From Bacteroidaceae bacterium (GTDB taxonomy: Bacteria > Bacteroidota > Bacteroidia > Bacteroidales > Bacteroidaceae), in assembly GCA_017461605.1 (NCBI GenBank), contig JAFTXN010000002.1, positions 248,001 through 312,000 on the forward strand: a stretch of 64,000 nucleotides of DNA. Reading direction: 5' to 3'. Of this stretch, positions 1,499 to 63,553 are shown one piece after another; the stretch's first letter is position 1; each line of letters opens with the position of its first letter. The notes under the pieces were generated by a model. That model saw only the letters and a list, made by a program, of their open reading frames with translations, searched no databases and was not told the DNA's origin. The position numbers and the translations under genes are program-made.

Positions 1499-2659
1499 TC
1501 AGTCGAAGTATTGACGGAAACTTCGGAAGATGGTATCTTTTGCCTGGCTTGTAGGCTCAAGATTGTCGTTGCCCTTCATGCTCTCGAAAGCACGCTTCTC
1601 GTCTTTGTTCAGTGCTTCGGGGATGTAGATGCTCACGTTGATGATGATGTCGCCCTTGCCGTAGCCATATCCCGATACTGCCGGCAAACCTTTGCCTCGC
1701 AGGCGGAGACGTGTGCCGGGCTGTGTACCGGGCTTGATATTGATGCGTGCTTTTCCGTCGAGCGTGGGGATTTCCACACTGTCGCCGAGCACGGCTTGAG
1801 GTACGGTGAGGAGTAAGTTGTAAATGAGGTCGTTTTCGTCGCGAATGAGTTCGGGATGTTCTTCTTCCTCGATGAGCACTTGTATGTCGCCCGGCACGCC
1901 GTTGTGTCGGCCTGCGTTGCCTTTGCCTTGCACCGTAACAACCATGCCTTCCGCTACGCCGGCGGGAATGTTGATTTCCACAATTTCCTCACCGCTTACC
2001 ACACCTTCGCCACCGCATTTGCTACATTTGTTCTTGATGACAGAGCCTTCGCCTTGGCAGGTGGGACAAACCTCTTGCGATTGCATCATTCCAAAGAAGC
2101 TTTGGCTTGTGCGCAGCACGTATCCTGTGCCTTGGCAAGTGCTACAGGTTTCGGGCTGACTGCCTCCGGCGCTTCCGCTGCCGTGGCAGGAATCGCAGCA
2201 AACGTTCTTCCGAACTTTGAACTTCTTTGTTACGCCTGTCGCAATCTCGTTCAGCGAAAGCTTCACCTTGAGTCGAAGATCGCTGCCTTGGAAGCGACGT
2301 GGACGACCGCCGCGGCCACTTCTGCCGAAGCCTCCGCCAAATCCACCCATGCCGCCAAAGATGTCGCCAAACTGACGGAAAATGTCGTTGAGGTCCATGC
2401 CGGCACCGCCAAATCCGCCGGCGCCGCCCATACCGTTGACGCCCTCTTTTCCGAACTGGTCATATCGGGCACGCTTGTCGGGGTCGCGCAAAACGTCATA
2501 GGCTTCGGCCGCTTGCTTAAACTTTTCTTCGGCTTCCTTATCCCCCGGATTGCGGTCGGGGTGGTATTTGATGGCCACCTTCTTATAGGCGCGTTTTATT
2601 TCTTCGGCACTCGCCGTTTTCTCAACGCCGAGTATCTTGTAATAGTCCATATCTGCCAT
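1499..2659 (-). CDS. dnaJ: chaperone DnaJ (Hsp40)
   Basis: DnaJ delivers unfolded clients to DnaK and stimulates its ATPase. All class A domains are visible: the J domain with YHPDRNPGD at about residue 33, the G/F-rich region at about 75-125, four CxxCxGxG zinc repeats ([32 protein letters not shown]) at about 155-220, then the C-terminal substrate-binding domains. The length of 386 aa is usual. It follows grpE by 80 nt on the same strand with no promoter motif that I can see between them, so the two probably form one operon. DnaK is not in the window. Confidence 0.98.
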
Positions 2660-2739: not shown

Positions 2740-3312
2740 TTATTGTCCCACAACCACTTTGGCGTGGCGGATTACCTTGTCGTTGAGCAGGTATCCGGCT
2801 TGCACGCAGTCGATGATGCTGCCCTTTTGTGCGTCCTCGGTGGCAGGAATCAGGGCTACGGCTTCGTGAAAATCAGTGTCGAAGGCAGCTCCTACGGTCT
2901 CCATGCGTTTGAGTCCCTGTGCGCTTAAGGTTTTCGTAAGTTTGGAGAGGATGAGTTCCACGCCCTCTTTCAGCGTTTCGACCTCGTTGCTGGCGGCTAT
3001 GTTCTGCTGTGCGCGTTCGATGTCGTCGAGTACGGGGAGCAGGGCCTCCATCAGCTTTTGTCCGCCACTGAGGATGAGATCTGCTTTCTCCTTCAGCGTG
3101 CGTTTGCGATAGTTGTCGAATTCGGCCATCTGCCGTAGCAATTGGTCTTTGAGCATTGCGATTTGTTCCTCAGCTTCTGCCAACTTTTCAGCATCGGTTT
3201 TTTCGGTCTCTTCCACGGTTACTTCGTCTGTGGCCACTTCTTCTGTGGTTTCGGTTTCGGCAGCCGTGTTTACGTTCTCTTCGGTTTCGTATTTCTTTTC
3301 AGCTTCTGTCAT
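2740..3312 (-). CDS. grpE: nucleotide exchange factor GrpE
   Basis: GrpE releases ADP from DnaK. The 190-aa product has a long acidic low-complexity N-terminus (about 1-50, rich in E, T and V), then a coiled-coil region, then the conserved C-terminal part seen here as FDTDFHEAV and the terminal VVVGQ. It is the first gene of the grpE-dnaJ unit. A sequence matching the sigma-54 consensus lies 45-60 nt upstream of the ATG (see the separate entry). There is no CIRCE-type inverted repeat upstream. Confidence 0.96.
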   Translation of the reverse strand: MTEAEKKYETEENVNTAAETETTEEVATDEVTVEETEKTDAEKLAEAEEQIAMLKDQLLRQMAEFDNYRKRTLKEKADLILSGGQKLMEALLPVLDDIERAQQNIAASNEVETLKEGVELILSKLTKTLSAQGLKRMETVGAAFDTDFHEAVALIPATEDAQKGSIIDCVQAGYLLNDKVIRHAKVVVGQ

Positions 3313-3356
3313 GTTGTGTGTCGTGATTTAATAAATATGCGTTTGTCCTCGGAAAT

Positions 3357-3372
3357 AGCAAAGTTTGTGCCA
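3357..3372 (-). promoter_or_regulatory. sigma-54 (RpoN) type promoter of grpE-dnaJ
   Basis: Read on the minus strand the sequence is TGGCACAAACTTTGCT. It matches the -24/-12 consensus TGGCAC-R-N4-TTGC-W at every fixed position, with exactly 10 nt between GG and GC. Transcription would start near 3346, about 33 nt before the grpE ATG. No TAnnTTTG housekeeping box is seen here. The assignment is motif-based; RpoN itself is not in the window. Confidence 0.6.
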
Positions 3373-3394: not shown

Positions 3395-5210
<1,816 letters not shown>

Positions 5211-5280: not shown

Positions 5281-5347
5281 AAAACTGGCAGGCCTTGCCA
5301 GTTTTTTGGCAGTGCTTGCCAATTTTTTGGCAAGGCCTGCCAGTTTT
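5281..5347. repeat. triple palindrome cluster 1 (TGGCA-N5-TGCCA type)
   Basis: Three imperfect palindromes follow each other at about 21-22 nt, separated by T tracts: TGGCAGGCCTTGCCA, TGGCAGTGCTTGCCA and TGGCAAGGCCTGCCA. The site lies between two divergent genes, so it is unlikely to be only a terminator. The rest of the 5021-5730 gap holds repeat loci A and F and otherwise shows no gene. Confidence 0.8.
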
Positions 5348-9463: not shown

Positions 9464-9537
9464 AGCCTCTTGTCGGATTCGAACCAACGACCCCGAGATT
9501 ACAAATCACGTGCTCTGGCCAACTGAGCTAAAGAGGC
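9464..9537 (-). tRNA. tRNA-Thr (anticodon UGU)
   Basis: A full cloverleaf is readable: acceptor GCCTCTT/AAGAGGC, D arm GCTC..GAGC, anticodon loop TTTGTAA giving UGU, variable loop GGGTC, and T arm GTTGG-TTCGAAT-CCGAC. CCA is not encoded. The anticodon stem CGTGA/TCTCG has one T-T mismatch in the third pair. It begins only 5 nt after the end of the SRP RNA, so both are probably cut from one transcript. Confidence 0.95.
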
Positions 9538-9542
9538 GGGGA

Positions 9543-9638
9543 GGGTAAGCTCACTGCATCGCGCCGCTACAACCAACTACCTTTGCTGCGGTCAAGCCCT
9601 GGAGGATTCGAAGGGAGCTGGCCGTACAGCACTTACCC
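9543..9638 (-). ncRNA. ffs: small SRP RNA (4.5S-like)
   Basis: The minus-strand sequence folds into one long hairpin: GGGTAAG at one end pairs with CTTACCC at the other, and an inner helix of about 15 pairs leads to an apical region. That region holds the hallmark of SRP domain IV, CCAGG and AGCAA separated by exactly 10 nt, the same spacing as CAGG/AGCAG in E. coli 4.5S RNA. The apical stem-loop is GC-UUGACC-GC rather than the usual GGAA tetraloop. Ends are inferred from the pairing. It binds Ffh during co-translational membrane targeting. Confidence 0.7.
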
Positions 9639-9657
9639 GTGTTGCTTATTTGCGATG

Positions 9658-19514: not shown

Positions 19515-19534
19515 AATAGTCTGAATATGCGGAG

Positions 19535-19712
19535 CAAAGTTAGTGCAAGGCGAGAGGAATACAAAGAAAGACCGCAGGTTTTTCTTTTATTCCCGAGCCG
19601 CCGCCTGACTTGCGCGCAGCGAAAGTGTGCAAGGCGAGAGGAATTGTGGAGAAAGACCGCAGGTTTTTCTTTTATTCCCGAGCTGCCGCCTGACTTGCGC
19701 GCCAAAATGTGC
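19535..19712 (-). repeat. hairpin-promoter repeat, locus B (with promoter of rlmD)
   Basis: Two tandem units on the minus strand. The unit next to rlmD has the hairpin GGAATA..AAAG against CTTTGTATTCC with the same bulged base as the other loci, then the -7 box TAACTTTG (19535-19542) with TTTG (19562-19565) exactly 19 nt upstream. The second unit keeps the hairpin and GGCTCGGG-like block but has no intact -7 box. Confidence 0.75.
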
Positions 19713-19810: not shown

Positions 19811-19879
19811 GAAAACTGGCAGGCCTTGCCACTTTTTTGGCAGTGCTTGCCAGTTTTTTGGCAAGGCGTGCCAGTTTTT
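19811..19879. repeat. triple palindrome cluster 3 (TGGCA type)
   Basis: Same three units in the same order as cluster 1, separated by T tracts: TGGCAGGCCTTGCCA, TGGCAGTGCTTGCCA and TGGCAAGGCGTGCCA. The remaining part of the 19515-20030 gap holds a 9-bp hairpin at 19964-19989 past the mutY stop and no gene. Confidence 0.8.
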
Positions 19880-52502: not shown

Positions 52503-52552
52503 GTTTTCCGGTGCTTGCCGGAAAAGTGGCAGGCCTTGCCACTTTTTGCGCA
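52503..52552. repeat. palindrome cluster 7 (TGGCA type, two units)
   Basis: TTCCGGTGCTTGCCGGAA and GTGGCAGGCCTTGCCAC at about 21-nt spacing, then a degenerate third unit (TTTTTGCGCAAAG). Confidence 0.7.
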
Positions 52553-52607
52553 AAGCCTCCGAACAATCACACGCTTGCCTCTGTGCATTGCGCAAGCCTT
52601 GTCAAGA

Positions 52608-52699
52608 ATTTTGCTTCGCGCAAGTCAGGCTGCGGCTCGGGAATAAAAGTAAAAGCTTCGCGTTTTACTTTGTATTCCACTCGCCTTGCACTAACTTTG
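52608..52699 (+). repeat. hairpin-promoter repeat, locus E (with promoter of pyrK-pyrD)
   Basis: One plus-strand unit: TGCGGCTCGGG block, hairpin GGAATA..AAAGTAAAA against TTTTACTTTGTATTCC with the conserved bulge, CACTCGCCTTGCAC and -7 box TAACTTTG (52692-52699). TTTG (52669-52672) is exactly 19 nt upstream. It ends 26 nt before pyrK. Confidence 0.75.
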
Positions 52700-52725
52700 C
52701 AAGCATACAGATAAATTAACATTGT

Positions 52726-61280: not shown

Positions 61281-61347
61281 AAAACTGGCAGGCCTTGCCA
61301 AAATTTTGGCAAGGCCTGCCAGTTTTTTGGCAAGGCCTGCCAGTTTT
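61281..61347. repeat. triple palindrome cluster 9 (TGGCA type)
   Basis: TGGCAGGCCTTGCCA, then two copies of TGGCAAGGCCTGCCA, spaced 21-22 nt with A/T linkers. The cluster lies 51 nt upstream of the htpG sigma-54 motif, a distance at which enhancer-binding sites can occur. The remainder of 61059-61501 shows no gene. Confidence 0.8.
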
Positions 61348-61397: not shown

Positions 61398-61413
61398 TGG
61401 CACAGAATTTGCA
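61398..61413 (+). promoter_or_regulatory. sigma-54 (RpoN) type promoter of htpG
   Basis: TGGCACAGAATTTGCA matches TGGCAC-R-N4-TTGC-W at every fixed position with exactly 10 nt between GG and GC. The start would be near 61425, about 77 nt before the htpG ATG. It is the second such match in the window, and both precede chaperone genes. Confidence 0.6.
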
Positions 61414-61501: not shown

Positions 61502-63553
61502 ATGCAAAAAGGAAACATCGGGATAACGACCGAAAACATCTTTCCCGTCATTAAGAAATTTCTCTATTCGGACCACGAAATCTTTCTGCGCGAAATCGTG
61601 GCCAACGCAGTGGATGCCACACAGAAGCTGAAGACGCTGGCAGCCAAGGGAGAGTGTCCGGGCGAACTGGGCGACCTCACCATCAGCATCAAGCTCGATG
61701 CCGAAGCCGGTACACTCACCGTGAGCGACCGCGGTATCGGTATGACGGCCGAGGAGGTGGATAAGTATATCAACCAAATCGCTTTCTCGGGTGCCAACGA
61801 CTTCCTGGAGAAATACAAGGACGATGCCAACGCCATCATCGGACACTTCGGACTGGGCTTCTACTCCTCCTTCATGGTGGCCAAGCAGGTGGAAATTTTC
61901 ACCCGTAGCTACAAGGAAGGCGCAGTGGCTGCTCACTGGACTTGCGACGGCAGTCCGGCTTACGAACTCGGCGAGTGCGACAAGGCCGAGCGCGGTACCG
62001 ACATCGTGTTGCACATCGATGATGAGAACAAGGACTTCCTGGAAAAATCGAAGGTGGAAGGACTGTTGCGTAAATACTGCAGCTTCCTGCCTATCCCCGT
62101 GGCTTTGGGCAACAAGACCGAATGGAAGGACGGCAAGCAGGTGGAGACCGACGAGCCGAATGTGATCAACGACACCAACCCCCTGTGGACAAAAACTCCC
62201 TCCACACTCAAGGATGAGGACTACAAGAGCTTCTATCGCCAGCTCTATCCCATGAGCGACGAACCGCTGTTCTGGATTCACCTCAACGTGGACTATCCGT
62301 TCAACCTCACCGGCGTGCTCTATTTCCCCCGCATCAAGAGCAACATAGAGATACACCGCAACAAGATACAGCTCTACTGCAATCAGGTGTTCGTGACGGA
62401 TCAGGTGGAGAACATCGTGCCCGAATTCCTCACCCTGCTGCACGGTGTGATCGACTCTCCCGACATCCCGCTCAACGTGAGCCGCAGTTATCTGCAGAGC
62501 GACGCCAATGTCAAGAAGATTTCGACCTACATCACCAAGAAGGTGTGCGACCGCCTGCAGGGCATCTTCAAGAACGACCGCGCCGACTTCGAGCAGAAGT
62601 GGGACGACCTGAAACTCTTCATCCACTACGGCCTGTTGTCGCAACCCGACTTCTACGACAAGGCAAAGAACTTTGCACTGCTCAAGGACGTTGACGGAAA
62701 GAGCTTCACCTATGATGAATATCGCGACCTCATCAAGGCCACTCAGACCGACAAGGAGGGAAATCTCATCTACCTCTACGCCACCGACCGCGAAGCACAG
62801 TATAGCTACATCGAGGCTGCTCGTGCCAAGGGCTACAGCGTGTTGCTCATGGACGGACAGCTCGACAGTCCGCTGGTAGGCATGTTGGAACAGAAGTTCG
62901 AGAAGTGCCGCTTCTCGCGTGTGGATGGCGACACCATCGACCGCCTCATTCAGAAGGATGACAACAAGGGCGAAGAACTTGCAGCCGACGAGGCTGAACG
63001 CCTGACCGGTATCTTCAATGCCGTTCTGCCCAAGCTCGACAAGGTGGAATTCCACGTAGAGACACGTGCCATGGGCGAAGAAACCGCTCCGGTGGTTATC
63101 ACGCAGAGCGAATACATGCGCCGAATGAAGGAGATGAGTCAGCTGCAAGCCGGCATGAGCTTCTATGGCGAAATGCCCGACATGATGAGCCTCGTGCTCA
63201 ACTCTGACCATCGCCTGGTGAAGGGCGTGCTCGCGGATGCCGCTTCGATGAACGAGCAGCTCAATCCCGTGGAAGCCGACTTGCGTGGGCTGAATGCGCG
63301 CCGTCAGGTGATCGAACAATCGCAGCGCGACAAGAAGTCTGAAGAAATCACGCAGGAAGAACGCGACGAACTCTCCAAAACCAACAACGAAATCAGTGAG
63401 AAGCAAAACCAAAAGAAGGAAATCCTGACGGCTTATGCCAAGGGCAGCCAAGTGGTTTCGCAACTCATCGACATCGCATTGCTGCAAAACGGACTGCTGC
63501 GTGGCGAAGCCCTCAGCAAGTTCTTGCGTCGCAGCATCGACATGATAAAATAA
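61502..63553 (+). CDS. htpG: molecular chaperone HtpG (Hsp90)
   Basis: HtpG is the bacterial Hsp90, an ATP-driven dimeric chaperone. The GHKL ATP-binding domain has HEIFLREIVANAVDAT with the catalytic Glu and metal-binding Asn region, TVSDRGIGMTAEEV, FGLGFYSSFMVA and GTDIVLH. The middle domain has FWIHLNVDYPFNLTGVLYFP and NVSRSYLQSDANVKKI, and the C-terminal dimerisation domain follows. It is 683 aa, the Bacteroidetes length. A DUF1460 gene starts 5 nt after its stop. Confidence 0.97.
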   Translation: MQKGNIGITTENIFPVIKKFLYSDHEIFLREIVANAVDATQKLKTLAAKGECPGELGDLTISIKLDAEAGTLTVSDRGIGMTAEEVDKYINQIAFSGANDFLEKYKDDANAIIGHFGLGFYSSFMVAKQVEIFTRSYKEGAVAAHWTCDGSPAYELGECDKAERGTDIVLHIDDENKDFLEKSKVEGLLRKYCSFLPIPVALGNKTEWKDGKQVETDEPNVINDTNPLWTKTPSTLKDEDYKSFYRQLYPMSDEPLFWIHLNVDYPFNLTGVLYFPRIKSNIEIHRNKIQLYCNQVFVTDQVENIVPEFLTLLHGVIDSPDIPLNVSRSYLQSDANVKKISTYITKKVCDRLQGIFKNDRADFEQKWDDLKLFIHYGLLSQPDFYDKAKNFALLKDVDGKSFTYDEYRDLIKATQTDKEGNLIYLYATDREAQYSYIEAARAKGYSVLLMDGQLDSPLVGMLEQKFEKCRFSRVDGDTIDRLIQKDDNKGEELAADEAERLTGIFNAVLPKLDKVEFHVETRAMGEETAPVVITQSEYMRRMKEMSQLQAGMSFYGEMPDMMSLVLNSDHRLVKGVLADAASMNEQLNPVEADLRGLNARRQVIEQSQRDKKSEEITQEERDELSKTNNEISEKQNQKKEILTAYAKGSQVVSQLIDIALLQNGLLRGEALSKFLRRSIDMIK

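Follow-up and report, generated by a model that had tools for sequence, protein, structure and literature searches.

A putative sigma-54 promoter of grpE-dnaJ and a candidate activator of chaperone genes in Bacteroidaceae

Positions 3357 to 3372 of the stretch of Bacteroidaceae DNA analyzed here (64,000 nt, hereafter the window) are likely to be the -24/-12 element of an RpoN promoter for grpE-dnaJ, within a proteostasis regulon that would be activated by an enhancer-binding protein (EBP). This regulon would comprise grpE-dnaJ, groES-groEL, dnaK, htpG, and clpB, with the addition of rsfS-ftsH and a small heat-shock gene in single relatives. The evidence that we computed consists of promoter conservation, a palindrome, its phasing, a recurring gene order, and a single activator. 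The first-pass annotation of this DNA had proposed an RpoN-linked chaperone regulon, and the idea is supported by our comparative data, which show sites before grpE, groES, dnaK, and htpG. It had also taken RpoN control of chaperones to be new, a view that is not supported, since sigma-54 chaperone promoters in Bacteroidota are already described in two publications (PMC9723704, PMC12316311).

The first publication is a start-site map of Flavobacterium psychrophilum. It places sigma-54 (SM4) promoters before groESL, dnaK, grpE-dnaJ, htpG, clpB, lon, and skp, and leaves open the activator of these promoters (PMC9723704). The second, a computational survey from 2025 called aRpoN-DB, finds an enrichment of predicted sigma-54 promoters of groEL, groES, grpE, dnaJ, dnaK, and HSP90 in Bacteroidota or in Bacteroidia. 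It describes grpE as sigma-54 dependent in both B. thetaiotaomicron and F. psychrophilum, and groES in B. thetaiotaomicron (PMC12316311). Its set for Bacteroidota is the same as that of the start-site map, and it differs from our analysis in dealing with enrichment at the genome scale. In other sources, the term "bacteroid" is found in no passage of PMC3162934, and sigma54, sigma-54, or rpoN in no passage of PMC7366714. The palindrome or the activator assignment was not found in the open-licence literature, searched at the level of titles and abstract starts. By this literature search, the sigma-54 chaperone regulon is known in the phylum, and the operator together with its activator is a testable addition that goes beyond what is in print.

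The grpE promoter site and its window

The features of the window are the following, with protein families assigned using Pfam alone as the protein library.

3357..3372, minus strand: sigma-54-type promoter of grpE-dnaJ (putative), TGGCACAAACTTTGCT, with -24 TGGCAC and -12 TTGC, conserved in relatives
2740..3312, minus strand: grpE (Pfam GrpE, 3.7e-44)
1499..2659, minus strand: dnaJ (Pfam DnaJ and DnaJ_C), next downstream of grpE on the same strand
3395..5020, minus strand: ATPase gene directly upstream of grpE (Pfam), presumably of ABC-F type given its domain layout
61398..61413, plus strand: sigma-54-type promoter of htpG (putative), TGGCACAGAATTTGCA, a perfect match, conserved upstream of htpG
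61502..63553, plus strand: htpG, encoding Hsp90 (Pfam HSP90)

The grpE promoter sits in the 82-nt gap between the upstream ATPase gene and grpE. Its sequence, place, and strand are as the first-pass annotation had described them: TGGCACAAACTTTGCT is read on the minus strand from 3372 to 3357, with the correct GG-N10-GC spacing and the TGGCAC-N5-TTGCW pattern, and the grpE ATG (3312) lies 44 nt downstream of its last base (3357). Transcription of grpE-dnaJ is predicted from this position to start near 3346. A second perfect match before htpG had been pointed out as well, and the exact TGGCACNNNNNTTGCW does occur twice in the window, before grpE and before htpG, where base counting over the two strands predicts 0.061 occurrences. 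The frequency of such matches, given earlier as one per four million positions, is one per 2.1 million in our computation. The annotated absence of CIRCE held: the letters of this element, TTAGCACTC-N9-GAGTGCTAA, had no match in the window with up to three mismatches, and a CIRCE element in the window was thus rejected.

The window also contains hairpin arrays of the form TGGCA-N5-TGCCA with a spacing of exactly 21 nt, at 5286-5342, 19817-19873, and 61286-61342 (three units each), and a single unit at 52527-52541. One array ends 55 nt ahead of the htpG promoter. The hairpin-linked sequence TGGCAAGGCCTGCCA has 48 occurrences in the genome, and its reversed control has none. A small SRP RNA of Bacteroidales type adjoins a tRNA (window 9464-9645), which fits the order.

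Conservation of the promoter before chaperone genes

We searched for promoter sites in 60 genomes. The grpE gene was found in 59 of them and all 59 loci were read. For groES, 49 loci were read among the 57 genomes having the gene (G040, G043, G045-G047, and G049-G051 were left out), and for dnaK, 43 among 49 (G001, G025, G042, G046, G047, and G058 were left out), two of the 43 being taken from matches of the composite-pattern search presented below. For htpG, 80 loci were kept among at least 559 found. Sites were counted within 260 nt before the gene under a strict rule, where GG and GC are fixed and at least nine of ten consensus letters are present, and under a relaxed rule, where the last C is free and eight of ten letters are required.

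Under the strict rule, the same-genus loci have sites before grpE in 21 of 34 cases, groES in 27/32, and dnaK in 8/11, and the other loci in 6/25, 8/17, and 0/19 cases, respectively; the dnaK counts cover 30 of the 43 loci. Strict sites precede htpG in 54 of 80 loci. The expectation, estimated from the rest of the loci, is 0.003-0.014 per window overall, and 0.006-0.012 for the same-genus and htpG sets. The same-genus conservation of the grpE motif, which the first-pass annotation had proposed to check, is 30/34 when counted with the relaxed rule. Relaxed sites were distributed as follows, related genomes being non-independent samples in these as in the strict counts, and the control windows having sites in 5-8% of cases.

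grpE: gene strand 51/59; opposite strand 4/59; control windows 77/994
groES: gene strand 44/49; opposite strand 1/49; control windows 65/802
dnaK: gene strand 42/43; opposite strand 1/43; control windows 60/1134
htpG: gene strand 76/80; opposite strand 3/80; control windows 275/3718

The strict count of 0/19 might be taken for a lack of dnaK sites in loci from outside the genus. This was overturned: most of the ten other-family dnaK sequences that were read show a TGGCA-type -24 followed by TTG[AT], and the strict count thus understates conservation. More generally, the C of the -12 element is often A or T in other families. Concerning htpG, the carriers of a site with ten of ten letters include Prevotella denticola NCTC13067, Alloprevotella tannerae ATCC 51259, Segatella baroniae, and Xylanibacter brevis. 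Among the 80 loci kept, no strict site was found in Leyella stercorea, Hoylesella saccharolytica, Prevotella aurantiaca, and five Phocaeicola, and the latter five have a relaxed site and the palindrome described below. In the window's own genome (2.06 Mb, 81% complete), no HSP70 match was found at 1e-150, presumably because the assembly is incomplete.

Could the grpE site be a chance match without function? TGG-N10-GC alone is common in the window (200 occurrences for 187 expected), and when the whole genome was searched for TGGCACNNNNNTTGC, which gave 12 exact matches against one for the reversed control, nine of the 12 were within or antisense to long open frames. Yet the site keeps its position before orthologous genes across families while the spacer sequence is free to vary, and both strict and relaxed sites are conserved above the level of background windows. 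Chance was rejected on these grounds and we find it scarcely credible. The comparison instead indicates that the grpE site is conserved.

The three remaining genomic matches lie between genes, each directed towards one: grpE, htpG, and a gene for a probable zinc metallopeptidase. The last one is an exact sigma-54 site at L001:1501-1515 (G000:C1), 98 nt before a gene whose product, from its residues, we take to be a membrane zinc metallopeptidase.

Sigma-54 or housekeeping promoter

The strict sites before chaperone genes include 89 distinct sequences. The filter imposed GG and GC on all of them. In columns that it did not score, R is found right after TGGCAC in 80 of the 89 sites, T right before TTGC in 77, and W after TTGC in 84. 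The extended sigma-54 consensus has R, T, and W at those columns.

One might argue that the grpE site belongs to a housekeeping promoter whose -7 box TAnnTTTG is slightly degenerate, and that its sigma-54 look is accidental. In PMC9723704, this box is the one given for sigma-A in the phylum. The first-pass annotation saw no housekeeping -7 box here, which is right for TAnnTTTG itself and misses that the site contains AAACTTTG, a single letter away from it. In addition, three sites of the form TTGCACTAACTTTGC[AT], located before ORFs of the window, are two letters away from the grpE site. Against this explanation, none of the 89 distinct strict sites fits TAnnTTTG, for which the housekeeping box was rejected, the unscored R, T, and W are kept, and the opposite strand and control windows are mostly devoid of sites. 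We therefore consider a housekeeping origin very improbable. Within the limits of sequence evidence, sigma-54 is favoured by TGG being kept and TA not.

The three TTGCACTAACTTTGC[AT] sites are borne by three similar stretches of the window (about 5060-5200, 19520-19700, and 52590-52705), where they have a promoter-like appearance. With up to two mismatches, TTGCACTAACTTTGC[AT] has six matches in the window, one of which is the grpE site, for 0.11 expected. By their sequence, these stretches look like a dispersed promoter-bearing repeat.

A palindrome phased with the promoters

Word counts upstream of 110 strict sites revealed CTGACAA and AAATGGC, which together form the palindrome CTG[AC]CA-N3-TG[GT]CAG. 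These counts also picked up words located in the coding end of the gene that precedes grpE. The palindrome was exposed by 7- and 8-mers, whereas dyad counting gave little signal. With at least ten of its 12 letters within 300 nt, it is found before groES in 22 of 35 cases (0.8 expected), dnaK in 6/8 (0.2), htpG in 6/54 (1.2), and grpE in 3/27 (0.8). In the window, there is none within 200 nt of the grpE or htpG sites. In the window's own genome, groES has a sigma-54 site and a palindrome 58 nt from the promoter, and a clpB-like gene has TGGCAAGGGTTTTGCC with a palindrome at 48 nt and a weaker overlapping half at 38. The distances between the start of the palindrome and the start of the -24 element cluster at 25-28, 36-39, 44-50, and 58-59 nt, with 13 of the 78 lying at 69-92 nt.

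We trained a palindrome matrix on the groES and dnaK promoters of the same genus only, and scored the remaining promoters. The other-family sets, which played no part in the word counts, had matches before grpE in 10/21 cases, dnaK in 14/18, and groES in 7/12. For htpG, whose set did take part in the word counts, the matches were 16/76. Same-genus grpE had 1/30, and the background windows 83/8006. Outside the training set, 37 of the 48 matches lie at 24-61 nt from the promoter, with R of 0.82 at a period of 10.5 nt, a phasing that was reached by none of 20000 uniform draws, although relatedness between genomes inflates this statistic. At many of these promoters, the palindrome, which lies on one face of the helix from the promoter, is probably the binding site of the activator. 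A tendency of palindrome-bearing promoters to tolerate a poorer -12 element was weak (Fisher p 0.035) and confounded by lineage, and was not retained.

We then searched for the palindrome and the promoter as one pattern in the 60 whole genomes. This resulted in 11 matches in ten genomes, with none for the reversed control, and all 11 precede proteostasis genes: dnaK (six), groES (three), clpB (one), and rsfS-ftsH (one). The dnaK and groES genes were assigned by position, clpB and rsfS-ftsH by their residues. In 50 of the 60 genomes, among which the window's own, the composite pattern has no match. As the pattern was derived from groES and dnaK of the same genus, the presence of these two genes among the matches was expected; it is the absence of other genes that is telling. 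A looser pattern gave 19 matches in 15 of the 60 genomes, again with none for the control: 15 before dnaK (nine), groES (five), and rsfS-ftsH (one), and four that are ambiguous or overlap open frames in sense or antisense. Applied to 296 genomes of the phylum, the looser pattern had 27 matches in 21 genomes, against seven for the reversed control. These were before dnaK (nine), groES (seven), a small heat-shock gene (one), and secA (one), the other nine being unclear or overlapping open frames in sense or antisense. The names of clpB, rsfS-ftsH, and the targets in the 296 genomes come from first residues and not from a family scan.

RpoN and the candidate activator

The first-pass annotation had advised verifying that the genome encodes RpoN and an enhancer-binding protein, and both are there. 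The rpoN gene has its activator-interacting, core-binding, and DNA-binding domains, and there is one strong bacterial enhancer-binding protein (bEBP), the four further PF00158 matches being weak (3.7e-7 to 1.8e-4).

L019:7637-8848, minus strand: EBP (candidate activator), with AAA+ at residues 16-182, followed by a lid, some 90 more residues, and a Fis-type HTH (HTH_8)

This EBP is sensorless, i.e., it has no domain N-terminal to AAA+, and it has the Walker A motif GESGVGKE and a GAFTGA loop. Its gene is found in the order EBP-lptE-TPR-secG; the TPR protein has no obvious export signal by eye. Within the genus, 29 of 35 genomes have a single PF00158 match at E 1e-30 or better. We could read 34 EBP copies (none for G018), of which 32 keep the HTH; the copy of G017 is cut by a contig end. 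The loop reads GAFTGA in 21 copies and GAFTGS in eight, the other five copies having GAYTGA (one), GAYTGS (two), GAFTTA (one), and GAYTDA (one), so that 13 of 34 depart from GAFTGA overall.

In other families, eight of 23 genomes have a bEBP no more than about 4 kb from groES, and all eight show the order EBP-lptE-TPR-secG-groES, LptE having no match in one and TPR none in another. In the other 15 genomes no bEBP is listed beside groES, in several of them because the contigs are short. In F. psychrophilum, a sigma-54 regulator gene adjoins lptE, and a few locus tags separate it from groES (0733-0732 and 0729), according to Table 2 of PMC9723704, and these locus tags fit the same EBP-lptE...groES order.

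We found no rpoN match in G003, G018, G040, and G050 among the 60 genomes. These four still carry an activator match and sites, and the absence of rpoN thus failed as a negative control. For G040 and G050, it is perhaps an assembly gap.

The palindrome might be bound by a factor other than the EBP, either a repressor or a different activator, in which case the EBP assignment would be wrong and the promoters would still be sigma-54 dependent. The palindrome is missing from 17/32 groES and 8/24 dnaK promoters of the same genus, where nearly all activators keep the HTH, and from most grpE and htpG promoters. Other families often have several bEBPs, and in four of them (G041, G043, G048, and G055; L288, L289, L290, and L291) a second bEBP gene, alike only in its AAA+ part, follows grpE-dnaJ on the same strand at a distance of a few kb. 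These observations are to be set against the single bEBP of most genomes in the genus, the retention of its HTH, and the phasing of the palindrome with the promoter, which favours contact with the polymerase over steric repression. There is also the case of G002 (L294), a one-contig genome where the EBP ends at 337 residues and has no HTH, with the loop GAYTDA; its groES and dnaK have no palindrome and both have intact -24/-12 sites. This pairing of HTH loss with palindrome loss is only a hint, from one genome, and genomes with an intact HTH also have promoters devoid of palindromes. On the whole, we regard binding by another factor as unlikely, and retain the EBP as the candidate activator.

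Discussion

If the EBP is the activator, RpoN-polymerase would bind these chaperone promoters as a closed complex, which the hexameric AAA+ EBP, the only strong one found in the window's genome, would open with ATP. Bound to the palindrome on the right face of the helix, the EBP would contact the polymerase over a short distance. Some bEBPs act without an upstream activator site, and at grpE and htpG of this genus, where the palindrome is mostly missing, the EBP may act from solution or from a weaker site. Its gene would head an EBP-lptE-TPR-secG operon, running on into groES in several other families. That the EBP binds and activates these promoters, and that heat or misfolded protein induces them, is inferred. 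By analogy with PspA and PspF, one may guess that a chaperone, or the TPR protein from the same operon, restrains the sensorless EBP. Our confidence in the main reading, and in the broader proposal below, is slightly reduced by the departures of the EBP loop and by the adjacency to groES being found in only eight of 23 other-family genomes.

PspF of Escherichia coli is a sensorless, stress-linked bEBP with AAA+ followed by a Fis-type HTH, which controls the psp genes and is held by PspA. The EBP resembles it in its lack of a sensor, its domain order, and its putative link to stress. It differs by about 90 extra residues between the AAA+ lid and the HTH, and by its proposed targets, which are cytosolic chaperones. 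Sigma-32 and HrcA/CIRCE control the same heat-shock target genes; here there is no CIRCE in the window, and promoter type and activator would differ. As for F. psychrophilum, the accessible part of its start-site map describes three PF00158 proteins and no operator, in another lineage and lifestyle (PMC9723704), in contrast with the one bEBP match of 29/35 same-genus genomes and the phased palindrome found here.

A broader proposal, to which we give even chances, is that the heat-shock response of Bacteroidota is a dedicated sigma-54 module replacing sigma-32 and HrcA. One sensorless EBP, encoded in EBP-lptE-TPR-secG(-groESL), would bind CTGACA-N3-TGTCAG, on one face of the helix relative to the RpoN promoters of dnaK, groESL, grpE-dnaJ, htpG, clpB, ftsH, and hsp20, and would couple envelope export to cytosolic folding capacity. 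The published papers that we found leave open which activator drives the sigma-54 chaperone promoters of Bacteroidota. A genus with mostly one activator, a phased operator, and a recurring gene order make it possible to name one gene and one DNA site. If true, this would provide stress-responsive promoters for gut Bacteroidales.
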